From Paraneptunicella aestuarii (lineage in GTDB: Bacteria > Pseudomonadota > Gammaproteobacteria > Enterobacterales > Alteromonadaceae), in the NCBI RefSeq assembly GCF_019900845.1, contig NZ_CP074570.1, forward strand, positions 2,790,001-2,854,000: 64,000 nt of DNA, in the 5' to 3' direction. Each line of letters starts with the position of its first letter. The stretch's first letter is position 1. Positions 1 through 26,211 of the stretch are shown here, piece after piece. The notes under the pieces were generated by a model that did not search any database, was not told the origin of the DNA, and was given only the letters and a program-made list of their open reading frames with translations. Both the position numbers and the translations under genes were made by a program.

Positions 1-2692
1 GTTGCATACCTCGGGCAATCTCCCGGGCTATCACCGCTGCTGAGCGCACGACATCCTCTTCCAACAGAGCGTTTTCTATCTCGCCCAACTCAATACGGAA
101 ACCCCGTATCTTAACCTGGTCGTCATTACGTCCCAGATATTCAAGCTCCCCTTCACTGTTCCAGCGACATATATCACCCGTACGGTATAAACGCGCTCCC
201 TCAACATGACTAAATGGGTCCGCAACAAAACGCTCGCGCGTTAAATCCGGGCGGTTCAAGTAGCCACGACCAACCCCTTCTCCTCCGATATAAAGCTCAC
301 CTGTCACGCCAATAGGAACAGGCTGCATATTTTCATCAACAACATGTAACGTTTCACTTGGGAAAGGTTTACCAATAGGGACTATCTCAAGTCCCTTATT
401 CAAACAGGACACCGAAGAAAAAATAGTGGTTTCTGTTGGGCCATAACAATTAAATAATTCACCCTCAAATGAATCTAACAACCTATTAGCCAACAGAGGT
501 GGCAAAGCCTCGCCAGCTACAAACAACTGCTGAATTTTTTTGAGCCCAGCCTGGAATTTTGTGTCTTCCAGATAGGCTGAGATCAAGGTAGGTGTTGATT
601 GAAAATGAGTTACTGGATACTTCTCTAGCAAGTCTGCCAAAGATTCTTCTTCAGCATGAATTTGCTCGTTTTTAGCCAAAAGCAGTGTAAAACCACTAGC
701 TAAAGTACAAATCAACTCAGCAATAGAAATATCAAAGCAATAGCTGGTCGCACCCAACCAAATTCCTTCAGGGTTAGAGAAATCCGCATATCTCTTGAAA
801 TCATTTTCAAAAGAGAACAAATGGCGGTGTTCGATCTCAACACCTTTTGGTTTACCGGTAGACCCTGAAGTGAAGATGACATAAGCACGGTTATCAAATG
901 ACAAGGGATTTGATAAAACAGGCGTTTCAAGGCCACCGTCGGTAAGAGACTCTTCAAATTTTTCTTCGCCCAAACACAGTATTTGTGCTGGCGTTTCGGG
1001 CAACCGGGTTCGAATATGCGATTCAGTAATGATGGCTTTGGATTCTGCGTTTTCCAATTGATAAGCCAAACGCTCCCTGGGATGATCAGGATCTAATGGC
1101 AGGTAAGCCGCCCCGGCTTTTAATACAGCCAAAATACTAATGACTATCTTCTCATTGCGCTCGAGATACAATCCAACAATGTCTTCTGGCTGAACGCCCA
1201 TAGAAATTAAGTGATGAGCTAACTGGTTAGCTTTTTCGTTGATTTCTTGAAAGCTAAATGATTTTCCATTGCTAATCAGTGCTATCTTTTCTGGCGTTTG
1301 TAACGCGTGCTGTTCAAACAACTGATGAACAAACTTTCGCTCATTAACCTGTTGCTTAGGGCCAGACCAGTCTGCAATCTGAGCCACTTCGCAGTCAGGC
1401 ATAATACGAACGTTTTTAAGATCCTCATGTAATTTGCCCAGACTATCCTCAATAAGGAAGTCCAAACGAGCCAAAATGAATTTTATTTCCTGTTCATTGA
1501 AGAATTTGGGATTGTAATCCAGGTGTAGATCTAGCGACCCATCGCTATCTTGCTCCCATACTGTCAGCATGAAAGGTCTGGTTTCATGATTGTGGCTCTG
1601 ATAAACCAGCTTTCCCGGTTGGCCCCCAAAGAATAATTCTTGCTTCAACTGTAAGTAATTATATGCAACTTCATATACTTGACGTCCTTGCAAACCCAAC
1701 GCGGAATTAAGGTGCCCTATTGGATAACGTTGATGCCTTAAATTTGAGCGTTGAGATTTGGTAATACTCTTCAGTAACTCTGCAAATGTATCAACGCTTG
1801 CTGTATCAATATTAGAAAGTGCAGTACTGACAAATGCCCCCAGCATCGATTTTTGTCGAGCTTTTTTCCGATTATGGGAAGGCACGCCAAAAAGTAAATC
1901 GGTACGATGATATGCAACAGAGAAGTAATGCGCTAACGCCCCCATAAAATAGTGAGCATTTGTTACTCCAACAGATTCAGATGCCTTTGAAATTTGCTCA
2001 ACTTTTTCAGCTGAAATATGGAAGGTTTCCCTTTGACTTCGAATATGAACTTTTTTATCTCTGTTCTTATGATAAAACTCGGTCAGGAACCTATCTGTTT
2101 TTCCTGCACATAAATTAGACCAATATTCTTTATTTCTTTGGTAATTTTCGCTTGCAAGGTAACGCTCATCATCCCGTGCAATCGCTTCCCACTCTTCATC
2201 CTTTTGCGCCTCTACTGGATTTCCATTATAAAGTTGGCTGAGGTTTTGCGCCCAATTTGAAAAGCCCCAACCATCCATTCCCAGATGATGATATAAACCA
2301 ACATACCAAAACCTGTCATGGCTCAACTTCACCAAAAATGCCTTGAAGAGTTCTTTATCCTCAATTTCCAGAGGAGTTTCAAAAAGTTCAGTAATCCATT
2401 TTTTAGCTGCATCAAAAGCATTAGCTTCATGTGTGAAATCAATAAATGGTAAATCGGTGCTACGTTGAGATGAACTATACTGTTTTACATGCTCTCCCTG
2501 AGAAACGATTCTCAGGCCAAAAATATCAAAAGTTTCTACCAGTTGACGATGCGCATCGGTCACCTTCTTTACATCAATAGCAGGTAAATCGATATAACCA
2601 CCAACGTTATATAGGGGGCTCCCCTGATTCCATATCTGGTCAAAATAGATGTCTTTTTGTGTCAATGTTAATGGGTAAAAATTCACATTCAT
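1..2692 (-). CDS. Non-ribosomal peptide synthetase, N-terminal part (C-A...)
   Basis: Partial gene; its 3' part lies beyond base 1. The ATG at 2692 is preceded by an AAGG ribosome-binding site. The product starts directly with a condensation domain (HHxxxDG motif at about residues 135-141), followed from about residue 465 by an adenylation domain with the A3 SGSTGKPKG loop (about 605-616), A4 FDIS, A5 YGPTE, A7 YRTGD and A8 RGFRIE. No carrier domain is reached. The specificity-pocket residues, aligned by eye to GrsA, read D-I-A-Q-F-A-C-I-F, which I cannot assign to a known substrate. A gene starting with a C domain is either a downstream subunit that accepts a peptide or a starter C domain that loads an acyl group. 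The second reading fits the acylase in the cluster. It is the last gene of a leftward operon, 106 bases after the permease. Confidence 0.95.
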   Translation of the reverse strand, partial: MNVNFYPLTLTQKDIYFDQIWNQGSPLYNVGGYIDLPAIDVKKVTDAHRQLVETFDIFGLRIVSQGEHVKQYSSSQRSTDLPFIDFTHEANAFDAAKKWITELFETPLEIEDKELFKAFLVKLSHDRFWYVGLYHHLGMDGWGFSNWAQNLSQLYNGNPVEAQKDEEWEAIARDDERYLASENYQRNKEYWSNLCAGKTDRFLTEFYHKNRDKKVHIRSQRETFHISAEKVEQISKASESVGVTNAHYFMGALAHYFSVAYHRTDLLFGVPSHNRKKARQKSMLGAFVSTALSNIDTASVDTFAELLKSITKSQRSNLRHQRYPIGHLNSALGLQGRQVYEVAYNYLQLKQELFFGGQPGKLVYQSHNHETRPFMLTVWEQDSDGSLDLHLDYNPKFFNEQEIKFILARLDFLIEDSLGKLHEDLKNVRIMPDCEVAQIADWSGPKQQVNERKFVHQLFEQHALQTPEKIALISNGKSFSFQEINEKANQLAHHLISMGVQPEDIVGLYLERNEKIVISILAVLKAGAAYLPLDPDHPRERLAYQLENAESKAIITESHIRTRLPETPAQILCLGEEKFEESLTDGGLETPVLSNPLSFDNRAYVIFTSGSTGKPKGVEIEHRHLFSFENDFKRYADFSNPEGIWLGATSYCFDISIAELICTLASGFTLLLAKNEQIHAEEESLADLLEKYPVTHFQSTPTLISAYLEDTKFQAGLKKIQQLFVAGEALPPLLANRLLDSFEGELFNCYGPTETTIFSSVSCLNKGLEIVPIGKPFPSETLHVVDENMQPVPIGVTGELYIGGEGVGRGYLNRPDLTRERFVADPFSHVEGARLYRTGDICRWNSEGELEYLGRNDDQVKIRGFRIELGEIENALLEEDVVRSAAVIAREIARGMQ

Positions 2693-2798: not shown

Positions 2799-5234
2799 CT
2801 ACTCATATCTCAAAACTTCCATTGGGCTTGATAGAGCAACTTTTCTGGTTTGAAAAAAGGCTGACAGTGTGGCAACCAAAAGTGTGAGAATGATCGTCAG
2901 AATGAAAATGTAGATGTGCTCCCCAACGCCAATACGCAAAGCGAAACTGTTTAACCAGCCCTGAATAAACCAGAATCCGCCAATTAGACCAATAAAGCTG
3001 CCTAGTATAACGGGCTTGGAGAATTGCCAATTAAGTAACCAGATGAGTTCCCAAACAGACGCGCCCAATACCTTACGAATTCCAATTTCTTTTTGACGAC
3101 GGGTAACATAAAACAGTGCCATGCCATACAGGCCAGTAGCAGCCATGAATAAAGCAACGGCCGAGAATACCAGTAAAATGTTTATTTGACGGTCTTCAGT
3201 GCGGTATAACGCCTCGAACTCTGATTCAACAAACTTTTTGGATATTGGTTGGTCGGGTAAAACCTGACGCCAGATCGTATCAATTTGTTTTAACACAGTT
3301 GAGGTAAATGCAGGATCTAAATCCAACGTCATAATGTGCAATTGATTGGGTGTCCCCAAAGTAAAGACCATGGGTCTGACGGCATGATGCATTGAACGTA
3401 ACTTCAGATCTTCAACAACCCCGATAATTTTGAGATCGCTATCATCAGTTGAAATCACTTGCCCAATTGCAGCTTCCATTGAATTGATGCCGAGTTTGTT
3501 TAAAAACTCTTTGTTGACCACGACATCACCTTGACCTCTGACATTTTCCTGCGGTCGGATGAAAACCCGGTCATTCTGACCAGTGGAAAACACTCTTCCT
3601 GACTTGGCACTAATTTCAAAGAGATCGAAAAATTCAGTGTCGACAAACATTTGCTCACTAATGAGCCTGCCACTTTCCTGATTGCCCGCGATTTGCGCGT
3701 TAATTGTACTTGAACTAAGTCTCGGGAAAGGACTGTTAGATAAAGCAGCACCTTTCACACCATTGATGCTCAGCAACTGCTGTTTGAAAGTATCTGCCAA
3801 TGCTTTGTTCTGCCCACCGAAGAATAATGTCAGCTTATTAGATTCATTAAATCCCTTGTCTACGCTGTAGAGATAGTTCATTTGCATATAGAAGAAGGCC
3901 GTGCCAATGATTAATGCGGCAGAGACAGCAAATTGCACAACAACCAGTGCGTTTCTGACATAGGATTGTCCGGGAGGGGATGACTTGTTAGCAGTTAAAA
4001 CGGTTGTCGGTTTAAGGGATGACAATACAAATGCAGGATAACTGCCGGCAATAACAGCCAGAACAAAAACAAATACAATGCTCCCGAAAAATAATATGGG
4101 ATCCAGCAAAGTAACCATTGTTAGTGACTTTTCCCACAACAGGTTGAACCAGGGTAGAGCCAAAGCCCCGATGACTATTGCCAGTAAAAATGCAAAAAAA
4201 GAGATAACAATGGATTCAGTAATGAATTGAATAATAAGCTGCTTGCGAGAAGCCCCCATTACCTTACGGATGGTAACTTCCCGTGTTCTTAATGATGCTC
4301 TGGCAGTGGAAAAATTAACAAAGTTAATACTGGCTATTAGCAGTATCAGTATTGCAGCTAACAATGCAGAGTAAACCGCACTTATACTGCCATTCTGATC
4401 ACGCTGATGCTCTTTATCACCATGCAAATGAATATCAAACAATGGAATTAGATTGATCTTGATATTTTCAACATTTTCCAAGTGATCATTAGAAATAAAG
4501 TTTTTAGCCAGATGCTCTACTTTCCTGTTAATTAACTGATCATTTTGTGGAGTAGAAAATTTAATATAGGAATGTACGGCTGCCGAATACCACTCATTTA
4601 TAATGCCACTGAATACCGTTTTTTTTTCATCAAATAAAGTCAAAAAATTCAACTTGAAATGCGAGTTTTCAGGTACATCTTTGAGTACCCCAACAACCTC
4701 GTAATCAACAATTTGGCCAAAAGCATCAATAGCCAGAATCTGCCCAATCGGATTCTCCGAACCAAAGTATTTTAAAGCCATAGATTCGCTGACAAGAATA
4801 TTACTCGCGCTTTGTAATGCCTCTGCACCAACCCCTTTGACTACTGGAAGATCAAAAATGTCGAAGAAAGATTTTTCAGCATATGTGATTTGTTCATAGA
4901 ACACCTGATTGTTGCGACGAACTCTGTTGTCCCAATCAAATAAGCGAACCGACGCACTTACATTGGGCACCTGTTCAATTACCGCACTCAATACAGGATA
5001 AGGTGATTTGGAAGTTCTGAATGGTTGTAAATTTTTGGGATAATAACTGGTTTCAATCTTGTAAACATTTTCACCGCCATCAACCCAACGGTCATAACTC
5101 AGTTCATCAACTATATATAAGGTCACCAATAAGCACGCGGCAAAACCTATAGCTAATCCCCCTACACTAATAAGGAAATTAACTTTATTTGTTAACGCGA
5201 TTCTTAGTGCAATATTGAAATAATTCTTAAACAT
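2799..5234 (-). CDS. ABC transporter permease, duplicated FtsX/MacB-type
   Basis: Inner-membrane permease of about 811 residues. An N-terminal transmembrane helix with a GLAIGFAA motif precedes a MacB-like periplasmic domain. A first FtsX block of three helices follows (about 290-420, with the coupling motif TREVTIRKVMGAS), then a second helix, a second periplasmic domain and a C-terminal FtsX block (RRQKEIGIRKVLGAS). Two complete halves mean one polypeptide can serve as the whole permease, unlike MacB, which dimerises. It should work with the ATPase at 9563-10279 and the HlyD-type adaptor at 14608-15861 as an efflux system driven from the periplasm. I prefer the ATG at 5234 over a TTG nine bases upstream because AGGAA/GGAAG precede it. 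Confidence 0.9.
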   Translation of the reverse strand: MFKNYFNIALRIALTNKVNFLISVGGLAIGFAACLLVTLYIVDELSYDRWVDGGENVYKIETSYYPKNLQPFRTSKSPYPVLSAVIEQVPNVSASVRLFDWDNRVRRNNQVFYEQITYAEKSFFDIFDLPVVKGVGAEALQSASNILVSESMALKYFGSENPIGQILAIDAFGQIVDYEVVGVLKDVPENSHFKLNFLTLFDEKKTVFSGIINEWYSAAVHSYIKFSTPQNDQLINRKVEHLAKNFISNDHLENVENIKINLIPLFDIHLHGDKEHQRDQNGSISAVYSALLAAILILLIASINFVNFSTARASLRTREVTIRKVMGASRKQLIIQFITESIVISFFAFLLAIVIGALALPWFNLLWEKSLTMVTLLDPILFFGSIVFVFVLAVIAGSYPAFVLSSLKPTTVLTANKSSPPGQSYVRNALVVVQFAVSAALIIGTAFFYMQMNYLYSVDKGFNESNKLTLFFGGQNKALADTFKQQLLSINGVKGAALSNSPFPRLSSSTINAQIAGNQESGRLISEQMFVDTEFFDLFEISAKSGRVFSTGQNDRVFIRPQENVRGQGDVVVNKEFLNKLGINSMEAAIGQVISTDDSDLKIIGVVEDLKLRSMHHAVRPMVFTLGTPNQLHIMTLDLDPAFTSTVLKQIDTIWRQVLPDQPISKKFVESEFEALYRTEDRQINILLVFSAVALFMAATGLYGMALFYVTRRQKEIGIRKVLGASVWELIWLLNWQFSKPVILGSFIGLIGGFWFIQGWLNSFALRIGVGEHIYIFILTIILTLLVATLSAFFQTRKVALSSPMEVLRYE

Positions 5235-5312
5235 TACTTCCAATTCCTGTTTAGACCCTATCCGGGTCTGATTTCAGGCAACCTGTTTGCCTGATAAAAA
5301 TACAAACACTAC

Positions 5313-6308
5313 TTATTCTTCTAATGCGGCAACAGGCTGGGCATGTAATAACCTGGAAGACATTTCGTAGCGATAATCAGCAGATTTTTTCAAATCCTGA
5401 GTGATATTTATGCGCTTTAACCAGCGGTCGTTACCATCAAAATTGGCAACAAAAGGTTTACGCCCATGAACCCATTTAAAATTGTCCAGGTAACAGATAT
5501 CGCCAGCCTGAATAGGAATTTCTATTAGCTTCGATTCTATTTCCTTATTTAAATAATCCAGTGCCATCTGAGCCTCTTCATCATTTTCCATGGCATGGGT
5601 GAAATCTGGATCAATACATAAAAAGGGTTCGTCCGGATTGCCATATAAAATGGAATGCGTCACAAAAGTATCACCCTCAGTCTGATGCGCATTGTCAGGA
5701 ACGATATAAAACCGTTTCTGGAAAAGAATGTTGAAAATATCTTTAGGAATATCCAGTGCACTAAGGGAAATGCCTGTAGTACCAGTGTTTGTTGGGTTTT
5801 TAAGACAGTAGAAACACAAGTATTCACCTTTATGCGGATGAAATGCATCTTCAGTGTGAAAACTAAGAGTAGCAAGACTGCTACAACCAGCCTGATAATA
5901 TTCCTTACCCTTTATCGGCACAACATCGTGGATCAGTTTTCCACCCTGCTGGCTTACAAAGCCAAATGCATCCCCCAGACGAGAAGAAGCGATAACAGCT
6001 AAATAATCCACTTTTTTATTGGGAATATAAGTATCTTCTGGATGCCAGGTTTTAGGCGTTAGTGGAAGCTTATCTTTCTGAAACCCTCGAATAATCAAAC
6101 ACCCACTATGTGAATTGTTGTTTTTCAATTCATTCAGTTGTTCCAGCAATGATTTAGGCAAATCTCCTGCCAGCACATAAGCGATTTCGAGAAATTCAGG
6201 GTCCTCTGCTGTCGAAAACTGTTCACGAATATCTGCCATATAAACATCTAAGGCATCAACTTCACTATCGCTTAATTCATAAATATCAATGAGATTTACA
6301 CTAGACAT
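5313..6308 (-). CDS. VioC/AsnO-type Fe(II)/2-oxoglutarate amino acid beta-hydroxylase (copy 2)
   Basis: Clavaminate-synthase-like oxygenase of 331 residues. The iron ligands are H151 and E153 (FHTEDAFH) and H281 (WVHGRKPF), and the 2-oxoglutarate arginine is in DRWLKRIN. VioC makes (3S)-hydroxy-L-arginine for viomycin; AsnO makes hydroxy-asparagine. Residues 233-235 here are D-P-D, aligning with the Asp-x-Asp pair that I recall holds the guanidinium group in VioC. This copy is therefore the better candidate for the arginine hydroxylase (inference). The ATG at 6308 follows a GGAGAGG site and overlaps the 3' end of the previous gene by 8 bases, so the two are translationally coupled. An upstream start six codons earlier is possible but less likely. 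Confidence 0.9.
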   Translation of the reverse strand: MSSVNLIDIYELSDSEVDALDVYMADIREQFSTAEDPEFLEIAYVLAGDLPKSLLEQLNELKNNNSHSGCLIIRGFQKDKLPLTPKTWHPEDTYIPNKKVDYLAVIASSRLGDAFGFVSQQGGKLIHDVVPIKGKEYYQAGCSSLATLSFHTEDAFHPHKGEYLCFYCLKNPTNTGTTGISLSALDIPKDIFNILFQKRFYIVPDNAHQTEGDTFVTHSILYGNPDEPFLCIDPDFTHAMENDEEAQMALDYLNKEIESKLIEIPIQAGDICYLDNFKWVHGRKPFVANFDGNDRWLKRINITQDLKKSADYRYEMSSRLLHAQPVAALEE

Positions 6309-7314
6309 GATTATCGACCTCTCCAATGATTCTGTCTTTGCTTGACTTTCTAACGCTTGCTGAGCGTCTTAAACTTGAGGTGATATTGATGCGCTTTAAC
6401 CATCGATCTGTGCCGTCAAATCGTGCGATAAAAGCTTCTCGACCATGGACAACCTTACGATTATCCACAATGCATACATCACCACTCTGAAAAGGAACTT
6501 TGACTACATTGCGGTTAACTGCTTCTGTCAATATTTCCAGAGCGCGTTTCGCTTCCTTATCGTTCCTTAATTCCTGCGTATAATGAGGGTCGTAGCAAAT
6601 GTAAGGACGTTTGAAATTACCGTACAACATAGACCGTCTTTTGCCATTGCTGCACAACTCATTGAGGTAATCTTCCGACACAGGATCTTTGGATTGTTCT
6701 TCATCAAGATGTGATTCGTCCGGCATAATGCTATAGCGCTCCTGAAATAAAATTCTCTTAACTTCAGGCTCAATATTGAGGTCGACTACAGAACAAAAGG
6801 TTGTTGCGATGTTGTCCGGGTTGCGCACACATACAAAATTAACGTATTCCCCTCTATGAGCATGGAATGAGTCTTCAGTATGTAAAACCAGTTCAGAATC
6901 ACTGCCATAACCGGTTTGGGCATTTCCTCTTCCTTTAATTGGAATCAGGTCATGGATTATTTTACCTTTTTGTTGTGTTTCCCAACCAAAGGCTTCCCCC
7001 ACCAATGAAGAAAGCAAAACTGAAAAATAATCAAGATCCATCATTGGTCGATAAGATTCCGGGTAATCCCATGAAGAAGGCGTAGGGCCAAGATCTGCAA
7101 CAGGAAACCCTCTAACCAGTACGAGTCCACGGTCATCGGGATTATATTTTAAGTCTTTGTAAGCCATACGAATTCTTCGGGGCAAATCACAGGCATACAG
7201 AGACGCTCTGTCCAAAAATACGGGAGCATCAGCGGTTCCGTACCTGGCCTTCAACGCTGCAACCAGTTCCAGACAAAATTCGATCTCTTTTTGAGTAAGT
7301 GTTATTTGGTTCAT
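6301..7314 (-). CDS. VioC/AsnO-type Fe(II)/2-oxoglutarate amino acid beta-hydroxylase (copy 1)
   Basis: Oxygenase of 337 residues and a full-length VioC/AsnO/OrfP-family protein. The metal-binding motif is LHTEDSFH (H145, E147), with the distal H290 in VVHGREAF and the 2-oxoglutarate arginine in DRWLKRIN. It resembles VioC along its whole length, including FGWETQQ and the QERY...PDESH lid region. At the guanidinium-binding position it has D242-P-H244 where its neighbour has D-P-D, so it may act on a different amino acid such as asparagine, ornithine or an already modified arginine. GAGG precedes the ATG. It lies between the VioD-like gene and the second oxygenase. Confidence 0.9.
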   Translation of the reverse strand: MNQITLTQKEIEFCLELVAALKARYGTADAPVFLDRASLYACDLPRRIRMAYKDLKYNPDDRGLVLVRGFPVADLGPTPSSWDYPESYRPMMDLDYFSVLLSSLVGEAFGWETQQKGKIIHDLIPIKGRGNAQTGYGSDSELVLHTEDSFHAHRGEYVNFVCVRNPDNIATTFCSVVDLNIEPEVKRILFQERYSIMPDESHLDEEQSKDPVSEDYLNELCSNGKRRSMLYGNFKRPYICYDPHYTQELRNDKEAKRALEILTEAVNRNVVKVPFQSGDVCIVDNRKVVHGREAFIARFDGTDRWLKRINITSSLRRSASVRKSSKDRIIGEVDNHV

Positions 7315-7413
7315 CCCTTTACCTCTTAGGACTAATTATGCTTAACGAATATACTACTGAATAGAACATGTGCTTTTGTGGAGACATTTTTTAGTCCTGC
7401 ATATTTGACTCTA

Positions 7414-8529
7414 TTAAGCCCAATAGCGCTTTTTAAGAAAGTCTGTCAGTAGTCCAAAACCCTCATCGAATGAAGCTTTTGAAGCACCAAAACCCAAGCG
7501 GCAATACCCCTTGTAACCAAAACATTCTCCCGGAACCAGCATTACGCCCGTTTCGTTTACCAAGTCTCGGCAAAACTGCTCTGTATCCTCAACCCCCTTA
7601 AACTTGATGAAACAGGAGACACTACCTTGAGGATTAGTCCACTTAACCCGATCTTTGTTTTTCTCTACCCAATGAGTTAATTGTTGAAGGTTATCTTTGG
7701 CTTCTTTCATTTTGGGGGCCATCAAAAGATCAATATTTTCAATGGCTATCTGGCCTACGTATTCAACCAGAGGGGAAATATATAACGTTGTATAATCACG
7801 TAGCTGTACACAGTGCTCGATGACTTCTTCTGAAGCAAAGCACCAACCAATCCTGAGGCCTGGTAAACCATAGCCTTTGGATAATGTTCCAACTGAAATT
7901 GCCTTATCATATTCAAGGAAAGGATTAGGCAACTGTTCTCCCAGTGTCATTTCTTCAAATGCAGCATCCCACACAAGGTACGCATCAACCTCAGACACTA
8001 ACTTAATAAGCTCTTTCTGCTGCTCACGAGTGATAGTGACTCCTGTAGGGTTATGAGGAAAGTTTACCGCGACCAATTTGGTATTTTCAGTAAGAAGGGA
8101 TTTAAAATCATCCATTGCAGGAATGAAACCTGCCTCAGGTTCCATTTTCCAGTATTTGATATTACAGCCTTTTGTTTCAGCTACTGTGCTTAAGGCATGA
8201 TAAATCGGATCCAGAAGAATAACTTCATCACCAGGCTCAAGTAACGTGCTCATAATATGGTATAGCATCTCGTTTGAGCCGTTAGCAGTCATGACATTGT
8301 GTAAATTGCCATTTCCCCATCTGTTAGCTATCGCCTGGCGTAAACCATCACAGCCTCGAGTCATACTGTCATCAAAAGAAATAGCATCCATTTTTTCCAG
8401 ATCAATGGGTAAAAGCTTGCGCAGGTCGCCAAAGGTATATGTAGCAACACCGCTACTACCAAGGTCCATCTTGCAATCAAAGTAAAACTCCCTCATCCAG
8501 TGCTCTAGTGATGCCTTTGGTAACTGCAT
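7414..8529 (-). CDS. VioD-like capreomycidine synthase (PLP-dependent)
   Basis: Fold-type I PLP enzyme of 371 residues. The Schiff-base lysine is K218 (GTLSKGYGLPG). N160 lies in NFPHNPTG, D188 pairs with the PLP nitrogen, and R226 binds the substrate carboxylate. The N-terminus (LEHWMREFYF, then DLGSSGV and YTFGDLR) resembles VioD/CmnD/OrfR closely, as I remember those sequences, more than it does general aminotransferases. VioD removes the hydroxyl of 3-hydroxy-arginine and cyclises it to capreomycidine, the residue found in viomycin and, after further steps, in streptothricin. Position beside two VioC-type hydroxylases supports this. An ordinary aminotransferase is the alternative. AGGAG precedes the ATG. 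Confidence 0.85.
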   Translation of the reverse strand: MQLPKASLEHWMREFYFDCKMDLGSSGVATYTFGDLRKLLPIDLEKMDAISFDDSMTRGCDGLRQAIANRWGNGNLHNVMTANGSNEMLYHIMSTLLEPGDEVILLDPIYHALSTVAETKGCNIKYWKMEPEAGFIPAMDDFKSLLTENTKLVAVNFPHNPTGVTITREQQKELIKLVSEVDAYLVWDAAFEEMTLGEQLPNPFLEYDKAISVGTLSKGYGLPGLRIGWCFASEEVIEHCVQLRDYTTLYISPLVEYVGQIAIENIDLLMAPKMKEAKDNLQQLTHWVEKNKDRVKWTNPQGSVSCFIKFKGVEDTEQFCRDLVNETGVMLVPGECFGYKGYCRLGFGASKASFDEGFGLLTDFLKKRYWA

Positions 8530-8550: not shown

Positions 8551-9510
8551 TTAAGCCATTGCGGTTAGCGTTTTACGCTCCCCTGAGAAGGGTTTTCGGC
8601 CATGGCTGAAAGCGAGATTATCCAAAATCATCAGATCGTTCTCTTGCCACTTAAAAACGATTTCATTGTCCGCGTAGACTCTTCGAATAACGTCAAGATC
8701 TTGTTCATCAATCTCACTTCCATCACCAAAATAGGCATTCCTTGGCAGGTTCTCTTTGCCCAATACTTCAACCAGGCTTTCTTTGGTACTCTTGGTAAGG
8801 CTGGAAACGTGAAACAGGTGTGCCTGATTAAACCAAACGTCTTTATTCGTATGCGGATGCTTTAGCGTGGCCTGATTAATTTGTTTTGTACGCAAGCCAT
8901 TGTTCCCTATCCACTCGAACTGAATATCATTGTCGCGGCAATAAGATTCAACTTTTGTTTTATCGGTGGTCTGAAATACTTCGCTCCATGGAAGATCGAT
9001 GTCTTGATAATTACGTACATACATGACTTTTTTAGCAATAAACTTTTCCCTTATCTCAACAGGAATAGCCTCAAAAACCTTATGACTATCTGCAATTGGA
9101 GTTTCACCGCCAATGCTTGCTGCAACCTGGCTAAAAAAACCAATTTTTGTCGGCCATTTGTTCGAGTATGAACTTTCATTATGTTGCAGAATCGTCTCAT
9201 CAGGATGGTATTCAGTAGCCGTGTAGACATTAGCACGAAGCTGAGTTCGCGGCGTAGACCGGTACACGTAAGACAACAGTGGCATACTAAAAATTTCTGA
9301 CAAAACCCGGCTCAACTGTTTACTGCCAGATATGCGCAATCCTCTGATAAGAAGTGCACCATTCTGGTCTAATAAGCGATTAATATCGGAATGATTATTT
9401 TGGGCCCAATCAGTAACTTTTTCACCTTGTGGATCAACATGAATCAACATGGGTTTACCGCTAATTAACTCTAAATCAGATACCTGAATACCATTCAGAT
9501 TGTTGACCAT
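8551..9510 (-). CDS. SyrP/TauD-family Fe(II)/2-oxoglutarate oxygenase
   Basis: TauD/TfdA-fold oxygenase of 319 residues. The proximal iron ligands are in LQHNESSY (H-x-E), the distal histidine in NLAFSHGRKPF, and the 2-oxoglutarate-binding arginine lies shortly after. SyrP-type members beta-hydroxylate aspartate or other amino acids while they are bound to an NRPS carrier domain, so this is a likely third tailoring hydroxylase of the pathway. It belongs to a different branch from the two VioC-type genes. A GAGG site precedes the ATG, and the stop is 21 bases before the VioD-like gene, indicating one transcript. The substrate cannot be read from the sequence. Confidence 0.85.
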   Translation of the reverse strand: MVNNLNGIQVSDLELISGKPMLIHVDPQGEKVTDWAQNNHSDINRLLDQNGALLIRGLRISGSKQLSRVLSEIFSMPLLSYVYRSTPRTQLRANVYTATEYHPDETILQHNESSYSNKWPTKIGFFSQVAASIGGETPIADSHKVFEAIPVEIREKFIAKKVMYVRNYQDIDLPWSEVFQTTDKTKVESYCRDNDIQFEWIGNNGLRTKQINQATLKHPHTNKDVWFNQAHLFHVSSLTKSTKESLVEVLGKENLPRNAYFGDGSEIDEQDLDVIRRVYADNEIVFKWQENDLMILDNLAFSHGRKPFSGERKTLTAMA

Positions 9511-9562: not shown

Positions 9563-10279
9563 CTAAGCCACGGTTACTTCTGGTGTGGTTTCAGTTTGCT
9601 TTTCCAGTCTTTTCTCAGACACAACTTTGCCATCCAGTAAATTAACGACATAATTGGCAAAGCGAGTGTGCTCTTCAGAGTGGGTTACCATGACAATGGT
9701 TGTCCCCTTTTCATGCAACTGGCGAAGCATTTCCATAACTTCTTCACCATGTTTTGTATCCAAATTACCCGTTGGTTCGTCAGCAAGAATGACCTGGGGG
9801 TCAATCACTAACGCTCTGGCGACAGCAACTCTTTGCTGCTGACCTCCCGAAAGCTGATAAGGGCGATGATTTGCTCGATGGGAAATATTAAGCTTCTCTA
9901 AAACCGCATTTACCCGGCAGGTAATCTCACTAGCCGGTAGTTTCTGATATAGCAGTGGTAGCTCAATGTTTTCCCTGATAGTTAGTTCGTCAATCAAATT
10001 GAAAGACTGAAAAACAAACCCGATATTTTTCTTTCTGATGGTTGAAAGCTGGTCTTCTGAATAGTTGGAAATATCCTCTCCATCAAAGATATAACTACCG
10101 CTAGTAGAGGAATCCAACATTCCTAATATGTTGAGAAGTGATGATTTTCCACAACCAGATGGCCCCATAATGGCCACAAAGTCACCACGTTGGATTTGTA
10201 GGTCAAGGTCACTAACGGCTGCGGTCTGAACCTCTTCTGTCCTAAACAATTTAGTTAATCCTTTAAGTTCAATTAACAT
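9563..10279 (-). CDS. ABC transporter ATP-binding protein, MacB/LolD type
   Basis: ATPase of 238 residues with Walker A GPSGCGKSS, Q-loop FQSFNL, signature LSGGQQQR, Walker B VILADEPTGNLD and the switch histidine in MVTHS. The TGNLD extension marks the MacB/LolD/FtsE group that drives FtsX-type permeases. It should energise the permease at 2799-5234, with the HlyD-like protein as periplasmic adaptor. In MacB the ATPase and permease are one chain; here they are separate and six genes lie between the ATPase and the permease or adaptor partners. The cytoplasmic subunit is probably held at the inner membrane. Confidence 0.92.
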   Translation of the reverse strand: MLIELKGLTKLFRTEEVQTAAVSDLDLQIQRGDFVAIMGPSGCGKSSLLNILGMLDSSTSGSYIFDGEDISNYSEDQLSTIRKKNIGFVFQSFNLIDELTIRENIELPLLYQKLPASEITCRVNAVLEKLNISHRANHRPYQLSGGQQQRVAVARALVIDPQVILADEPTGNLDTKHGEEVMEMLRQLHEKGTTIVMVTHSEEHTRFANYVVNLLDGKVVSEKRLEKQTETTPEVTVA

Positions 10280-10325: not shown

Positions 10326-12023
10326 TTAGTGAACAGCTTCCAGCTGCTTTTTGGTTTGTACTTTTTTGATTTTGCCTTCATCCATCACAATGATTTTGTC
10401 AGCGATATCAAAAAATCTGTCGTCATGACTGATAACAACAACCATTTTTCCTCTGGCTTTTAGTTCTGGTAAGATTTCCTTGTAGAATACAATCTTAAAG
10501 CTAGGATCCTGATCCGCGGCCCATTCATCAAAGATATACAAGTCACGATCTTCAAGCATTTCAACCAAAAGGGCTAACCGTTTCTTCTGTCCGTCAGACA
10601 AAGATATTGTTGAAAATTTTCCATTCTCAATTTTTACTTTTTTATCCAGACCTAACTTGTTCAGTAATTCTTGAATTCTTGAATTTTCATCGGGATTGAT
10701 ACTACCCAACAGACGATCAAACAAATAAAAATCGGTAAAAATTGCCGAAATCGCCTCTCTACAACTATTTAGGGTGCTTTGATCTACGCGAGTATTTCCG
10801 AAGTAAATATCACCTTCATGGACAGGATAATGAAGAGCTATCAGTTTACATAAAGTAGACTTACCGGAACCGTTGCCTCCCACAATAAAAGCAATTTCAC
10901 CTTTAGCGAGTTCCATATCTATCGGACCTAATTGAAAACTATGATTTGTGCCTTCGTAACGGTAGGTCAGATTGGAGTAACGTACTGTTTTCCAATCAGG
11001 CAATCTGATTATCTCTTCACTGGCGTTTTCCCGAGACATTAAATCAATGAATTCGTTGACTCGCCCCAAAGCGACCTTGGCAACAAGTAATTGTGGAACC
11101 GTATTCATAATCGCAGTGATTGGCCCTGTAATGTACAGCATGGCCATGATGACACCGATCAGTGTTTCAGTACTGATCGAGTTATAGTTAACGTAAACAA
11201 AGGCGACGAAACCTATTACAAAAAAGCTAACCAAATCACCGTAACTACGTGCAGAACGCACGATTGTTTCAGCTTGTAAGCTGTCATCCCTAAGTAACCG
11301 TTCTGCATCACTCAATATTTCGTTGTAATAAGCTTCTCTTTTGGCTTTGTTAAGCTTCAGTTCTTTGGTGCCATATACCAGCCCCAACATTGACTCATAC
11401 AAATAATCCCAATGCTTTCTTACCTTTCGGAAATAGTGGTTACCAATATACAGGGGGATCTGATATGTCACGCCACCAAATACAATAGCCAGGATAACTA
11501 CCCAGAACAGCTCCGTATTCAGAAACAACAAAAAGCCTAACAAACCAACTAAAGTTACACTGTTCACCAATAGCCCTGGAAATAATCCGGCTCCGTCAAC
11601 AATTTGCGATACATCTCCGGTAATAACAGCCAATGTACGAGATGACCCCAGCTTGTCCAACTCATCAATTGGCGCTTTTAAAATACGACGATATATATTC
11701 AGTCTTGTTCTGTTGGTAATCTCGGTAGCGATTCTCACCAATAGAATTTGAGATGCTGTGCGGGCTATCAGGATAATGACGCATATCGCCAGGAAAAGTA
11801 GTGCGAAATAAGGATTGGAAACCTTAATTTCAAACATTGTTAAAGCACTGGACTGATCGACTGTAGGCAAATTATTGTCAGCCCCAATGCTCTTCAATAT
11901 GATGGGAATCAGCATTGAGTAACAAATACCAGCAATCGCACCTAATAACATGGAAATGAATACCATATTAGGTGCGTTTTTTGTGAAAGCTTCAAAGAGC
12001 TTCATGGGTTCTCTTTGTGGCAT
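10326..12023 (-). CDS. Cyclic-peptide/siderophore export ABC transporter, PvdE/SyrD type
   Basis: Fused transporter of 565 residues. Six transmembrane helices fill residues 1-320, then an ATPase with Walker A GGNGSGKST, signature LSDGQKKRLAL and Walker B IFDEWAADQDP. The EWAADQDP wording is typical of PvdE, SyrD and related NRPS-peptide exporters. These carry peptide or lipopeptide precursors from cytoplasm to periplasm. In the pyoverdine system PvdE precedes acylase PvdQ, and here the acylase gene lies immediately upstream. Start at ATG 12023 with GGGAG upstream; an in-frame ATG six codons on is also possible. Confidence 0.92.
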   Translation of the reverse strand: MPQREPMKLFEAFTKNAPNMVFISMLLGAIAGICYSMLIPIILKSIGADNNLPTVDQSSALTMFEIKVSNPYFALLFLAICVIILIARTASQILLVRIATEITNRTRLNIYRRILKAPIDELDKLGSSRTLAVITGDVSQIVDGAGLFPGLLVNSVTLVGLLGFLLFLNTELFWVVILAIVFGGVTYQIPLYIGNHYFRKVRKHWDYLYESMLGLVYGTKELKLNKAKREAYYNEILSDAERLLRDDSLQAETIVRSARSYGDLVSFFVIGFVAFVYVNYNSISTETLIGVIMAMLYITGPITAIMNTVPQLLVAKVALGRVNEFIDLMSRENASEEIIRLPDWKTVRYSNLTYRYEGTNHSFQLGPIDMELAKGEIAFIVGGNGSGKSTLCKLIALHYPVHEGDIYFGNTRVDQSTLNSCREAISAIFTDFYLFDRLLGSINPDENSRIQELLNKLGLDKKVKIENGKFSTISLSDGQKKRLALLVEMLEDRDLYIFDEWAADQDPSFKIVFYKEILPELKARGKMVVVISHDDRFFDIADKIIVMDEGKIKKVQTKKQLEAVH

Positions 12024-12092: not shown

Positions 12093-14540
12093 TTAATTTG
12101 TTGTTGGATTCAGAATCGTTGTAGTTTCAACGTTTTTATTCCCATCACCATACAGTTCAAAGAATTCAACTCTATTGAACGGTTTCACCATATCGGAATA
12201 ATGCTTACTGAGCACATGACCAGACTGGCCAGTAGAGTTCATATAAAGATGACGGATGTCACCATCCCCCATTTGCATGATTTGCCTGAAAGTGGCGCCA
12301 AAGGTTTGTTGGTATCCCTCTCCTTCCAACCACCTGGCATTTGCAACATTAACAGTATTACTTGATCCGCCATTCTCGAGTTGACGGCCAAAGACCATAT
12401 CCAAAAACCGGAAGTCACTAAAAGGCGTATGCTTGTAGAGAGTGAAATGAAGATTTCCCCAATTCCAATTCGAAAAGCTTCCTCCTTTTAATTCTTCCAA
12501 TTCTTCAAGAGCTGCTTTCAAACTCTGCTGCAACATTGTCTTGCAGTTTTCTTTCACCGCAGTGCCAACATTTTCACACCAGTCCAACTCGTTAGATGTC
12601 AATGCCTTGTAAAGTTGTGAATTGGAAGTGCCTCTTCCAATATCCAGCAATCTGTCACTTTCGGTGATTTTGTTCCAAAATCCATCTAATTGATCATCAA
12701 AAAGGTGCATTCTCAAGTGCTTCACCCATACATAGAAAATACTTGCAGCAACACTGTCTTCGGACATTTGTCCATCCCAATCCCTGATCAGAGCAATTAC
12801 CTGTTTCTGTTTATCATTCTCTGGTTCTAATGAGAGTAAAACTGGCACTAAAGCAAGTGCACTTACATCCTTCGTGTCAGCATGCATAGACTGGATAAAC
12901 GCCAAATCAACCGCCTGTTCACCTTCAATCTGTTGTTCGAGCAATTCTTCTATTCGTTGTGCTCTTGCAGGCTCAGCCCAATCTTTTGAAATGAAGTAAG
13001 GGTATTCATCACCAATAATTTTGTTATTAGCAGAAACAATAAATCCTTTTTTGGGATTGAATGTTCTGGGCATGACTTCATCAGGAATATATCCGTTCCA
13101 AGCAAACTCATCAGTCCATCCAGGAACGGGAAGTTGCCCTTCCCCATTCGCTCTAACAGGAATTTTGCCAGCAGCCAAATAACCAATATTATTTTTTGAA
13201 TCTGCATAAAGCATATTCAGTGCTGGTGTCACGAGGAAACTGGCAGCCTTTTGAAATGCGGTCCAATCCTGAGCATAATTCATCTGAAAGAAAGACTGAT
13301 ATGTAGTGTCGTTTTCATTAAGTGCAGTCCAGCGCAATGAGACTGGTTGATCAAACACACCATTCATATCCGTAACTAAAGGACCATGGCGAGACTTACG
13401 TAAAATGATTTTTACCGGTTGGTAAGGGGACATTAACTCCGCAGGAAAATCTGCTTTTATAGAAATTTCTTCGGTGCGGGTTTCAAATTCAAGCCACTCA
13501 CCGTTGAAAAGGTACTGCTTGGAATTTTTAGCATTTACCTGCTCAAAATACAGGTCCTGAACGTCTGCAAGCATTGCCGTACCGCCCCAGGCAATACTCT
13601 CATTTCTGCCAAACACGACTACGGGCATACCAACTAAAGTCATACCTGATGTATTCAGGCGATCCCCCTTTAAGCTTGCGACATACCATAGTGATGGCAT
13701 TTGAAGACCCAAATGAGGATCATTCGCCAAAATAGCAGCTCCTGATTCGGTATATTTCCCTGAAACAACCCAAGCATTACTGCCAGCATTTTGTCCCCCA
13801 ATGCCCAAGTCGGTTTCCATTTCCTTGTTCACTTTACCTAGAGACAACAAAGCGGCCTCTGTCTCAGGAGAGAGCTCAGTAATCGAGACAGGTGCATTTT
13901 CCGGATAACCTTTATTCAAAAATGCCTGCTGATCAGGTGAAAGATATTTGTTCGTTATTAGATTATTAATTTCCTGATCAAGGTTGGCTGATATATTAAG
14001 TGCAAACACTTTGGCCCAGGCAAGTGAATCTATTGGTTTCCAAGGGGCTGGTGTCACACCAAGAATCAAGAATTCCGGAGGCAATACAGGATTACTGTTC
14101 AACCACGCGTTAATACCATCAGCATAGGCCTGCAGGGAAGCTTTGGCATCTTCATCTATTGCCTCATAAGCACTTTCCGCAGCACCATAAAAATCCAACG
14201 TCCGCATCCATGTGTCTTTACTCAATAAAGCCTTGCCAAAGACTTCACTCATTGTTCCTGCAGCAATTCTGCGCTGTAATTCTAATTGCCACAGGCGATC
14301 CTGCGCATGAGCGTAACCAATTGCGAAAAAGGCATCAGTATCAGTTTGTGTATCTATATACACAACACCATTGTTATCACGACGAATTTTTACAGGATGA
14401 GAAATTCCTTTTACGACAACGTCTGTGTCAGAATCCACAACGCCTTTTGCCACATGCCAATACACTGCAAACAAAATCAGAAATAATGGAATTATGATGA
14501 AGATTAAGAATCTTGACATCACAGGGTATTTCTCAAACAT
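12093..14540 (-). CDS. Penicillin-acylase family Ntn hydrolase (putative precursor deacylase)
   Basis: About 815 residues. An N-terminal signal anchor (SRFLIFIIIPLFLILFAVYW) sends it to the periplasm. An alpha-chain region (IGYAHAQDRLWQLE) follows, and the autoproteolysis site falls before a serine in QNAGSNAWVV, where the new N-terminal serine is the nucleophile. The beta chain carries NDPHLGLQMPSLWY and GRNESIAWG, both typical of the family. By analogy with PvdQ it would remove a fatty acyl or other protecting group from an exported NRPS precursor. I choose the ATG at 14540 because AAAGGAA precedes it and the signal anchor then starts at once. A longer frame would overlap the upstream gene. 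Confidence 0.9.
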   Translation of the reverse strand: MFEKYPVMSRFLIFIIIPLFLILFAVYWHVAKGVVDSDTDVVVKGISHPVKIRRDNNGVVYIDTQTDTDAFFAIGYAHAQDRLWQLELQRRIAAGTMSEVFGKALLSKDTWMRTLDFYGAAESAYEAIDEDAKASLQAYADGINAWLNSNPVLPPEFLILGVTPAPWKPIDSLAWAKVFALNISANLDQEINNLITNKYLSPDQQAFLNKGYPENAPVSITELSPETEAALLSLGKVNKEMETDLGIGGQNAGSNAWVVSGKYTESGAAILANDPHLGLQMPSLWYVASLKGDRLNTSGMTLVGMPVVVFGRNESIAWGGTAMLADVQDLYFEQVNAKNSKQYLFNGEWLEFETRTEEISIKADFPAELMSPYQPVKIILRKSRHGPLVTDMNGVFDQPVSLRWTALNENDTTYQSFFQMNYAQDWTAFQKAASFLVTPALNMLYADSKNNIGYLAAGKIPVRANGEGQLPVPGWTDEFAWNGYIPDEVMPRTFNPKKGFIVSANNKIIGDEYPYFISKDWAEPARAQRIEELLEQQIEGEQAVDLAFIQSMHADTKDVSALALVPVLLSLEPENDKQKQVIALIRDWDGQMSEDSVAASIFYVWVKHLRMHLFDDQLDGFWNKITESDRLLDIGRGTSNSQLYKALTSNELDWCENVGTAVKENCKTMLQQSLKAALEELEELKGGSFSNWNWGNLHFTLYKHTPFSDFRFLDMVFGRQLENGGSSNTVNVANARWLEGEGYQQTFGATFRQIMQMGDGDIRHLYMNSTGQSGHVLSKHYSDMVKPFNRVEFFELYGDGNKNVETTTILNPTTN

Positions 14541-14607
14541 TAATAATTTCCTTTCCTGGCTTGCATGCTCAATTTCTCTGGTCCTTAATGAATAAACTTT
14601 GAAGGCT

Positions 14608-15861
14608 CTAACGAGAATTGATTTCAAGCACATCTTTATCTTCATAACCGGAATATGAAGATGAAACGATAAACTCACCTAACTCCAGACCGTTTAGTAC
14701 TTCGATGTACTTGGAATTGTGACGCCCTAATTGCACTTTTCTTTTGGTAGCATAAGTTCCATCGTCAGATAATACGAACACCCAGTTGCCACCGGTTTCC
14801 TGATAAAAGGAGCCATACTCAATCAAATTCGCAGAGGTAGATTCTCCCAACTGCAAGTTGCCAATGACAGTCTGGCCTCTACGGAAATCGGCTGGAGATT
14901 CCCCATCAAATTTCAAATCGACTTTAAAAGTGTTGTTAGTCACCTGGGGATAGATTTTAGCAACATAAAGCTGATGAACTTTGTCGTTAATGGTTACCTC
15001 AACTTTCTGATTTACATGCACACGCTCCAAATAGAATTCACCGATATCAGCAACCAATTTAAATTGCAGAGGATCATCAATTTGTCCGATTCGAACTCCT
15101 ACGCCAACAGCCTGGCCTTTCTTCAATTCAAAAGAAGTAAGTCGACCAGACCTGGGAGCCTTGACGGAAAGGTTTTCCAGATTTTTACGAGCCATAGCCA
15201 GGTTCTTTTCCAATTGCTCACTTGCCTTTTTCAACTGACCTATCTGTACTTCCTGCATTTCAATATCGTTTTGTTGACTTTCCAGCGTTACTTCTCGTTG
15301 AGAAACATACCAGTCCAATTCGATTTGAGTATCTTCAAGGTCGGCTTTCATCAGTACATTGTCTTTCACCAAAGGAAGAGAACGTTCAAGCTTTTTCCTC
15401 AATCGACGAATCTGATAATTAATATCGATAAGATTTTTTTTGTGGCTAAGACGGTTTTGCTCTAACTGAAGTTCGAGAGTTCGGATATTATTTAATTGCT
15501 GAGTAGTATCTGCGTCACTTCTGATCACCGATATTTGTACAGCGGGGTTAGAAAGCACCAGCATTAGCTGTCCCTCTTCAACCAATTCCCCATCCTCAAC
15601 ATAAATATCTTCTACCCGTCCACCTTCAATAGCGTCCAGGTATAAAGACTCTAATGGCTGTACATTAGCTCTAATAGTAACTCGATCATCAAAATTACCT
15701 TCTATAACCTGAGACAGAGATAAAACCTCACCTTCGACATCAACCGTACGTGAACTTTCTGGCACGAACAGCTTATATAGACTCACAGCTATGATTAAAA
15801 CTATTGCTACTACAATTAATTTCTTTCGGCCATCATTTGTTTTTTGAATTACTGTATCCAA
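14608..15861 (-). CDS. HlyD/MacA-family periplasmic efflux adaptor
   Basis: Membrane-fusion protein of 417 residues. It has a single N-terminal membrane anchor (LIVVAIVLIIAVSLYKLF), a lipoyl-like half-motif, a long heptad-rich coiled-coil hairpin (about residues 115-220), a second lipoyl half (VKAPRSGRLTSFELKKGQ) and beta-barrel and membrane-proximal domains. It should link the FtsX-type permease and its ATPase to an outer-membrane channel, as PvdR or MacA do. No TolC-type gene is visible, so a shared channel encoded elsewhere is implied. It lies between the CmlA-like gene and the acylase. Confidence 0.92.
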   Translation of the reverse strand: MDTVIQKTNDGRKKLIVVAIVLIIAVSLYKLFVPESSRTVDVEGEVLSLSQVIEGNFDDRVTIRANVQPLESLYLDAIEGGRVEDIYVEDGELVEEGQLMLVLSNPAVQISVIRSDADTTQQLNNIRTLELQLEQNRLSHKKNLIDINYQIRRLRKKLERSLPLVKDNVLMKADLEDTQIELDWYVSQREVTLESQQNDIEMQEVQIGQLKKASEQLEKNLAMARKNLENLSVKAPRSGRLTSFELKKGQAVGVGVRIGQIDDPLQFKLVADIGEFYLERVHVNQKVEVTINDKVHQLYVAKIYPQVTNNTFKVDLKFDGESPADFRRGQTVIGNLQLGESTSANLIEYGSFYQETGGNWVFVLSDDGTYATKRKVQLGRHNSKYIEVLNGLELGEFIVSSSYSGYEDKDVLEINSR

Positions 15862-15911: not shown

Positions 15912-17510
15912 TCAAACAAACTCGTATGTTTTTTTACCATATAGCATTTCTGCTTCGATATTAAGATCTGAGCATTCACAGACAAACTTCCTTGATTCCA
16001 CCAATTGTTCGGAATCATGTTCATAATTCATCCCCATAAAATATCTATAACAGGGTTCCACACCTAGCGCATAAACTGCTACATTTTTAGGTAAGAATTT
16101 GTTAACAAGAGCAATTGCCTGTACAGAATTCGCGCCATTCAACCGGCGGCTTTCTTTAATCTTTTTGGAAACCTTTTTGCTACTCAAAGCCCCATAAATC
16201 CAAGTATAGGGTGCCCCTACACACTCCATTCCGATAGCAAACAAATCAATATTTTCAAAGAAGGAAGACATATTATCATACACCTGAATGTCAGGGTTTG
16301 CAGAGTCAGCTCCGAAAAACATCCTTCGGCCATTTATGTCAATTATCCAGGCAGTTTTGGATCGAATATTAAGATCGCCATGCTCACCTAGAAAAGGAAT
16401 TGCTGTAATACTGCCTTTATCTAATTTGATGGAATCCAGATCTTCAACATCAATGACATCAAATCCTAATTTCTCCAGCCCCAACCGTAACGAAGGGTCC
16501 TCAAGTGTTCCACCATTGTTACGAGGAACGATTATCTTTCCAATTCTATGCCTTAGCTGAATAAGCGTTTCCAAATTGACATGATCAAGATGGTGGTGCG
16601 TTAAACATGCGTAATCAATTCTTTCTGGTAATTCAGAAAAGCTCATTACTTGAGCTTTATCATCATTACTCACCGCGATTACCGGATCTATCAGGATATT
16701 AACTTCCTGAGTTTCAATTAAGAATCCTGCGTGTCCCGTATAATTAACGCGCACACCTTGATGTTCTAAAGGCTTATGAAACTTCAGAGGTTTTGATTCT
16801 GTGAAGAGTTCTTCAACATCAAGCCCGCCCTCTATAGAGACATTTGAAAACAACTCTTTGATTCTTTTGGAAGATATCGGGTTAACGCGGGCACTGAATA
16901 TTTCATCAAGTATTGGAGAATCAAATGCTAAATCAGCCTGTAGATGCTGTTTGTCAGGTAAGCGGGGCGTGCTTAAAACGAAGGGACGCTCTTTAACTTT
17001 TTCCAGTGAGCCAAAAGATACTGACTGTAATTCTGGTTTGTAATAATCACTTATATATAGAAGTGACTCCAGAATACGATACGAAACCCTGTGTTCCCGA
17101 TCCATGAGCAATTCAACAAAGCCCTTTAGCGGCCCAGGTATCTGCGAATAAAGATATTCAATACTTTCTCCACTAACATGGCTATTCACAAGTTCGTCTA
17201 ATTTATCTATCGCTTCAGATAGTTGAATAAGATCGCGATTATGCGTTTGGGTTTTATCTACCAACGCACTGATTTCCTGCACCTGGTCTTCGGTACAATT
17301 GAGAAACTCACCTCCCGCCAGATTAGGATCCTTAGAGGCTATAATATGAAGTTGATGGTTACTAAGGAAAGAGCGCATCAATCTCAGATGGGTATGGACA
17401 AGATAACGGGAAAATGTAGCCGGAGAAACCAGGTAAGACCATGCATACCAGTGATTAATCAATGGTTCAAAGTAAACATCGTCTCTCAAATAAAGGGCTT
17501 TGCCGTCCAC
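15912..17510 (-). CDS. CmlA-like diiron beta-hydroxylase (metallo-beta-lactamase fold)
   Basis: 532 residues, the same length I recall for CmlA, which beta-hydroxylates p-aminophenylalanine on an NRPS carrier in chloramphenicol synthesis. The N-terminal domain has the family opening (FEPLINHWYAWSYL). The C-terminal metallo-beta-lactamase domain has H305-x-H307-x-D309-H310, E376 (GEHGDL) and D402 (GADSANPD), at nearly the numbering of CmlA. No histidine occurs between residues 379 and 497, so the last CmlA iron ligand (H468, as I remember it) has no obvious equivalent. The start is GTG with GGAAAGA upstream; the nearby ATG is out of frame. First gene of the leftward operon, so its promoter is in 17511-17984. 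Confidence 0.85.
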   Translation of the reverse strand: MDGKALYLRDDVYFEPLINHWYAWSYLVSPATFSRYLVHTHLRLMRSFLSNHQLHIIASKDPNLAGGEFLNCTEDQVQEISALVDKTQTHNRDLIQLSEAIDKLDELVNSHVSGESIEYLYSQIPGPLKGFVELLMDREHRVSYRILESLLYISDYYKPELQSVSFGSLEKVKERPFVLSTPRLPDKQHLQADLAFDSPILDEIFSARVNPISSKRIKELFSNVSIEGGLDVEELFTESKPLKFHKPLEHQGVRVNYTGHAGFLIETQEVNILIDPVIAVSNDDKAQVMSFSELPERIDYACLTHHHLDHVNLETLIQLRHRIGKIIVPRNNGGTLEDPSLRLGLEKLGFDVIDVEDLDSIKLDKGSITAIPFLGEHGDLNIRSKTAWIIDINGRRMFFGADSANPDIQVYDNMSSFFENIDLFAIGMECVGAPYTWIYGALSSKKVSKKIKESRRLNGANSVQAIALVNKFLPKNVAVYALGVEPCYRYFMGMNYEHDSEQLVESRKFVCECSDLNIEAEMLYGKKTYEFV

Positions 17511-19456: not shown

Positions 19457-19509
19457 AGATTTTACGGACACATCTAAAAAGAGGCATACTATGCCTGATA
19501 GGAGTGTTC

Positions 19510-21734: not shown

Positions 21735-22034
21735 CTCTTAGAAGGGCATCAGAGGAAGCCAATATACCAGCGGTGATTATCAGCGTCTGCTCAAACGCAA
21801 TCAGCTAATCAGCAGTATGAGTGCAGTTGGACATTGTGGTGATAATGCGGCCTGTGAGGGTTTCTTTGGAATGTTAAAGCGTGAACGGGTAAACCATCGG
21901 CGCTATCGAACACGAGATGAAGCAAGAGCGGATCTGTTTGATTACATTGAAAGGTTCCATAACCCGAGAATGCGACGTAGACTAGCGAATCAAGACAAGA
22001 AGTTTAAGTCTTTATAAAACTGTCCGTAGAAACG

Positions 22035-26136: not shown

Positions 26137-26211
26137 GCATTATTCATTTCAGAAATCTTGTTAGGAACAAGGAATTATCTGAATTTTGCAGATGAAATAT
26201 AACTTTAAAAG

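Follow-up and report, generated by a model that had tools for sequence, protein, structure and literature searches.

In a 64,000-nucleotide stretch of Paraneptunicella aestuarii DNA (assembly GCF_019900845.1, contig NZ_CP074570.1, positions 2,790,001 to 2,854,000; hereafter the window), we found three adjacent genes that, judging from their sequences, probably make up a precursor pathway of the capreomycidine type within the gene run of a nonribosomal peptide synthetase (NRPS). Plain positions below are those of the window, while positions marked G000:C1 are contig coordinates of the same genome, where the window starts at 2,790,001. The three genes lie on the minus strand in open frames and encode a VioD/OrfR-type pyridoxal phosphate (PLP) enzyme assigned as capreomycidine synthase (7414..8529, 371 aa, ATG), oxygenase A (6301..7314, 337 aa, ATG) and oxygenase B (5313..6326, 337 aa, TTG). 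The true start of oxygenase B is probably an ATG six codons inside the TTG frame, since the protein is 331 aa long in the database (record P0206). Oxygenase A begins 99 bases past the cyclase gene and shares 26 bases with B if B is taken to start at its TTG. The genes are part of a close-spaced minus-strand run that starts with a CmlA-type gene at 17510 and extends to the first NRPS gene at 2692, with gaps of at most 106 bases and two overlapping neighbouring pairs. Most of the NRPS lies to the left of the window and was therefore invisible to the original prediction, which had been made from the window alone.

The PLP enzyme matches the capreomycidine synthase model TIGR03947 over its whole length (profile 1-359 of 359) and scores 441.5 bits, where the cut-off is 390.9. 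A chance match is ruled out by the E value of 2e-132, as it is for the two oxygenases against the VioC model (3e-90 and 2.8e-85). Among solved structures, 4m2j is the best match (249 bits), followed by 3op7 (185) and 8fft (136), the last of which we take to be GntC, in agreement with E9, S25 and S26 in the alignment. The Glu, the two Ser and the PLP Lys of OrfR and GntC are all present (E9, S25, S26 and K218); their catalytic roles are taken from PMC10367076, in which 4m2m, identical in sequence to 4m2j, is the OrfR entry. A quick tree of 75 rows, with SH-aLRT support only, a midpoint root and distant rows below 175 bits left out, places the enzyme on a 61-row side that also contains the PLP protein from L055, the OrfP locus of S. 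lavendulae, and the one from S. californicus (L040), apart from 14 distant rows. On the TIGR03947 score, OrfR as the best structure and the tree placement, we rejected an ordinary aminotransferase. The original prediction had described a VioD-type N-terminus with K218 and had named beforehand a tree with general aminotransferases as the check that could refute it; the residues and the model score bear out the description, and in the tree the protein stayed in the VioD/OrfR clade.

Both oxygenases belong to the VioC family, and they share 40% identity with each other. The best solved match of each is CmnC (227 bits for A, 208 for B), followed by chains named L-arginine beta-hydroxylase, whereas asparagine oxygenase matches are far weaker (83 and 106 bits). 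The earlier description of VioC/AsnO-type oxygenases with intact iron ligands thus stands for the ligands (HxE...H; H145/E147/H290 in A, H157/E159/H287 in B) and for the VioC family as such, but not for AsnO or for VioC proper, as both proteins score under the VioC cut-off and fall in clades of their own. Clade A (23 rows, 100/99) and clade B (9 rows, 100/99) are sisters, joined with a support of 100/98; outside them stand 14 other rows, including OrfP, an S. californicus relative, two cyanobacterial rows and four further rows that NCBI names GntD. A first tree flagged A and B as meeting long branches, and a second one, with closer relatives of each, flags none and returns the same sister clades. 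At the places of CmnC L136, S138, D247 and D249, whose substrate roles are described in PMC9513391, oxygenase A has Q, G, D and H, and oxygenase B has Q, G, D and D. The Q/G pair is the OrfP pattern, and the Asp equivalent to CmnC D247 is kept in both pocket motifs (D242-x-H244 in A, D239-x-D241 in B). D-x-D is found in 9/9 rows of clade B, while in the 23 rows of clade A the second place of the motif is held by H (4), Y (4), F (2) or A (13). With both oxygenases in separate clades, the sequences make plain capreomycidine no likelier than a hydroxylated form of it or a different cyclised arginine.

The first NRPS gene enters the window with its 5' part (2..2692, minus strand, C-A by PF00668 and PF00501), and its frame continues to G000:C1:2783741. 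Seventeen adenylation (A) domains, five of them split across two frames, lie on the same strand to the left of the window, as far as G000:C1:2712019. We read their codes at positions set by the motifs of GrsA, with the tenth position taken as K. In order, domains 1 to 7 read DIAQFACIFK, DAQKVAEVGK (twice), DVEEMGVITK, DFWSVGMVHK, DVWHFSLIDK and DFWSVGMVHK; domains 8 to 12 read DASTVAAVCK, DATKVGEVGK, LDWVTSLADK, DATKVGEVGK and DAQKVAEVGK; and domains 13 to 17 read DVEEMGVITK (twice), DATKVGEVGK and VDWVTSLADK (twice). Code 3 of the series and the last of the three DVEE codes were each read as part-codes from two pieces, and these pieces show 100% identity with the second DVEE domain. Eight condensation (C)-family domains are epimerization (E)-like by their start motif, and two of them follow DVEE modules. 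An FkbM-type methyltransferase lies within the ninth module. DFWSVGMVHK is the Thr code (PMC8399532).

The code DVEEMGVITK, present in 3/17 of these domains, belongs to a kind of code seen repeatedly at VioD loci. A domains are present in 30 of 40 such loci, and a DVEE code was found in 12 of these 30, corresponding to 12 of their 60 A domains. The 110 control domains, 49 of which come from the same genome, gave none: 0/34 in six other NRPS regions of this genome, 0/15 in the neighbouring cluster, 0/15 in Microbulbifer taiwanensis (one unreadable), 0/29 from seven VioD genomes and 0/17 among the best-matching domains of other genomes of the order. The 29 are best-scoring domains regardless of their distance to VioD (29/30 loci gave one), and in other genomes scoring covered only the top 4-6 first-look candidates of each. 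The resulting Fisher p of 1.7e-6 is too optimistic, given the relatedness of the rows and the score-based choice of controls. In a tree, the two unsplit DVEE domains of this NRPS form a 13-row group (SH-aLRT 99) with ten DVEE domains from actinomycete VioD loci, that of the streptothricin locus among them, and the domain of locus L044 (SAEEVGVATK); a cyanobacterial DVEE domain (L025) is placed apart, as if by convergence. In a later test, xxEExGVxxK occurred in 3/3 VioD loci with 10 A domains (DVEEAGVCTK, DVEEVGVVSK and SAEEVGVATK), although these codes resemble those already seen and hence are not fully independent; no VioC relative was found at one of the three loci (L167). In S. globosus (L169), a DVEE-type A domain lies between annotated vioD and vioC, and the S. 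lavendulae locus L055 holds OrfP (100% over 204 residues) together with a DVEE A domain, so that the code occurs in a streptothricin locus. CmnG was considered as the nearest solved relative of the DVEE domains and dismissed (155.6 bits, while gramicidin synthetase chains reach 436.8). What is new, as far as sequence goes, is this NRPS link, with three DVEE A domains of which the two unsplit ones are joined in a supported clade with actinomycete VioD-locus domains. It supports and strengthens the original proposal that the bacterium would incorporate capreomycidine or a close relative in a peptide.

The pathway that we propose would begin with free L-arginine. One oxygenase, more likely A because it is seen more often with VioD, would hydroxylate arginine at C3, and the PLP enzyme would eliminate the hydroxyl and close the guanidine onto C3. 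The other oxygenase would add a second hydroxyl, either to arginine before closure or to capreomycidine after it. The residue would then be activated by the three DVEEMGVITK domains of the 17-A-domain NRPS and would probably be D-configured at two of the three positions, namely those whose DVEE module is followed by an E-like domain, and the peptide would leave through a cyclic-peptide exporter and a MacB-like system. We put forward more tentatively that the NRPS makes a peptide roughly 17 residues long with three hydroxylated capreomycidines in it, that the two dedicated oxygenases of the pathway arose by an ancient duplication, and that DVEExGVxxK is an undescribed (hydroxy)capreomycidine code that has travelled between phyla together with VioD.

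Capreomycidine, a building block met chiefly in actinomycete drugs (viomycin, for instance), is characteristic of the tuberactinomycin antibiotics, and its hydroxy form is a streptothricin precursor. The proposed pathway shares with viomycin VioC/VioD and capreomycin CmnC the same two enzyme families, conserved catalytic residues and, by prediction, a residue loaded by an NRPS. It differs in having a pair of oxygenases from separate clades rather than a single enzyme, in Q/G in place of CmnC L136/S138, and in a DVEE code where a CmnG relative has a code of the DPQD type. Streptothricin, which is not a 17-module peptide, offers a likeness in the Q/G pocket residues of OrfP and in the DVEE A domain that lies close to OrfR in S. 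lavendulae and is seen in S. globosus too; however, OrfP performs both hydroxylations alone (PMC9513391), compared with two oxygenases here. The flk cluster of Streptomyces albus, whose product cyclofaulknamycin contains D-capreomycidine, resembles our prediction of capreomycidine, possibly in the D-form, in an NRPS peptide; according to PMC8399532, that cluster is without a PLP gene and its A4 code is DLAESGAVDK. Acyl-capreomycidine has been reported from marine sponges (PMC10532625), and capreomycidine peptides have been predicted in a cyanobacterium (PMC9332814).

Relatives of the three genes recur together elsewhere. Sharing of metagenome contigs was inferred from equal contig sizes; on this basis VioD, A and B relatives co-occur on contigs of 295705, 19061 and 28165 bases, and A and B on contigs of 26696 and 2146 bases. 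Among the best 120 rows, VioD and A alone share contigs of 28440, 29249, 21680, 17031, 18670 and 5003 bases, where B may lie off the contig or outside those rows. In M. taiwanensis, VioD (58%) lies at the end of one contig, preceded by FAN1-type and helicase genes, while A and then B stand at the start of another, followed by a KfrA-type gene; its A relative has one TGA within the matched frame. A capreomycidine synthase over the cut-off was found in 1/369 genomes of the class and 1/295 of the order, in overlapping samples with the best 5-6 first-look candidates scored per genome, and both times the genome was that of P. aestuarii; none of 14 control genomes has one over the cut-off. This agrees with the earlier expectation that such a trait would be unusual for the lineage. 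That lineage is gammaproteobacterial by 16S as well: the 15 rows listed, out of 516 plasmid records that match the 16S of this genome, belong without exception to the class (87.7-89.4%; one record at 90-95% lies beyond those 15), and the best E. coli match reaches 88.1%. The accompanying statement that VioC and VioD are mainly actinomycete needs widening, as VioD-like loci outside the class, among the matches listed, are found in actinomycetes and also in cyanobacteria, Acidobacteriota, Myxococcota and Gemmatimonadota. The VioD gene is thus rare in this lineage, yet it is no actinomycete monopoly.

Guanitoxin biosynthesis also pairs a PLP cyclase with an oxygenase of this family, and oxygenase A passes the GntD model NF041363 with 360.8 bits (cut-off 345; B stays under it with 329.5). 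It is nevertheless most improbable that the PLP enzyme is a GntC-type enduracididine cyclase acting on gamma-hydroxyarginine and that A or B hydroxylates enduracididine in the manner of GntD. The PLP protein does match the GntC model NF041364, at 255.9 bits, but far under its cut-off of 415 and far under its own TIGR03947 score; the OrfR chain outscores 8fft (249 against 136 bits), and we dismissed a GntC-type identity on these scores. At the place of GntC H250, whose role is described in PMC10367076, the enzyme has L249, likewise a Leu in the OrfR chain, and the four NCBI-named GntD proteins lie outside clades A and B. Improbable too, though less so, is that the three genes make a free or non-peptide cyclic arginine, with the NRPS nearby by chance or ancestry and the DVEE domains loading Lys, Orn or Arg. 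The two acidic pocket residues would presumably fit any basic side chain, and reading 11.4 kb on one side of the M. taiwanensis genes and 20 kb on the other turned up neither an NRPS nor an A domain; against this, the DVEE code is absent from all controls, same-genome ones included, yet recurs at VioD loci of other phyla, and the three genes sit with the NRPS in one close-spaced run.

Several observations weigh against a capreomycidine-type precursor pathway that feeds this NRPS. Besides the M. taiwanensis flanks just mentioned, none of the 15 A domains in that genome (one unreadable) carries a DVEE code, and 18/30 VioD loci are without a DVEE domain within the flank examined. The CmnG relative in S. 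californicus L040 reads DPQDVGIVNK, another type than DVEE, so more than one code must exist. The control domains are biased samples, and the DVEE rows, in the later test too, are related and not independent. Both oxygenases miss the cut-off of the VioC model TIGR03946 (418.6; 302.6 for A, 286.3 for B). Eleven frame breaks lie in or beside C or A domains of the NRPS, in a count that left out natural-looking gene ends (e.g., G000:C1:2757154/2757188), and no thioesterase family match was found between G000:C1:2712019 and 2792692. Because frames are broken and a thioesterase match is missing, the product may not be made.

A decaying relic, with intact precursor genes beside a synthetase that is broken, carries insertion sequences and yields no product, would be compatible with the precursor pathway, and we consider it rather unlikely. 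The breaks, the missing thioesterase match, IS4-family copies at both ends of the cluster and a transposase inside would fit such decay. However, 11/11 breaks lie inside repeats of 98.9-99.9% identity, which cover 54% of the NRPS region as compared to 8% in the intact neighbouring cluster, and the genes of the run within the window are open. Ten repeat pairs of 1.2-4.5 kb and 98.9-99.9% identity lie within this one NRPS (G000:C1:2712019-2792692), which points to modules that were duplicated, or homogenized by gene conversion, very recently. Gap openings equal or exceed mismatches in 3/10 pairs (once 4 to 0 over 3.3 kb), as unpolished long-read sequence in repeats would presumably look, whereas mismatches outnumber them in 7/10, so that the differences are not indels alone. 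Sequencing error in the repeats seems likelier than true decay as the cause of the breaks.

If true, a complete gammaproteobacterial pathway with a paired oxygenase clade would broaden the search space for such antibiotics, and the DVEE code would offer a testable handle, predicting NRPS modules that load the residue in cyanobacteria, actinomycetes and proteobacteria. The DVEE code strings did not occur in a full-text search covering part of the literature, and the partly covered literature that mentions capreomycidine gave no report of a gammaproteobacterial capreomycidine product.

The other genes of the run all lie on the minus strand. An FtsX/MacB-type permease (2799..5243) lies between the first NRPS gene and oxygenase B. 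Beyond the cyclase gene follow a TauD-family oxygenase (8551..9510, PF02668, 132.5 bits), perhaps an Asp/Asn beta-hydroxylase; an ABC ATPase (9563..10279), whose top NCBIfam model, DarD, scores under its cut-off (274.3 < 375); the cyclic-peptide exporter (10326..12023, TIGR01194, 384.8 > 286.2); a penicillin-amidase-family acylase (12093..14678, PF01804, 714.3 bits), possibly with a role in peptide maturation; an HlyD-type adaptor (14608..15861), which probably belongs to an ABC/MacB-like exporter; and, as the first gene of the run, a CmlA-type diiron beta-hydroxylase (15912..17510, PF18456, 276.2 bits). Relatives of the TauD-family oxygenase are found at four other VioD loci from three phyla (L021, L023, L037 and L039).

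The whole 95-kb cluster is flanked by IS4-family copies (18187-19483 and 22009-23303 in the window, and G000:C1:2710124-2711315) that are 98.2-98.7% identical; the outer two have the same orientation, in an arrangement like that of a composite element. A tyrosine integrase (24148-25305) adjoins two tandem tRNA-Asp genes (26060-26288), a usual island boundary. At G000:C1:2649886-2702702 lies a separate, unbroken NRPS gene pair with 15 A domains, repeated DLYNNALTYK modules and two terminal thioesterase matches. Similar runs of A-domain codes (DILQLGMVWK, DS-LIAEVWK, DILQLGMVWK, DL-KIANI) occur in P. aestuarii at G000:C1:851001-888000 and on a contig of M. taiwanensis (G660:C10), and these two NRPS regions perhaps make a shared product.

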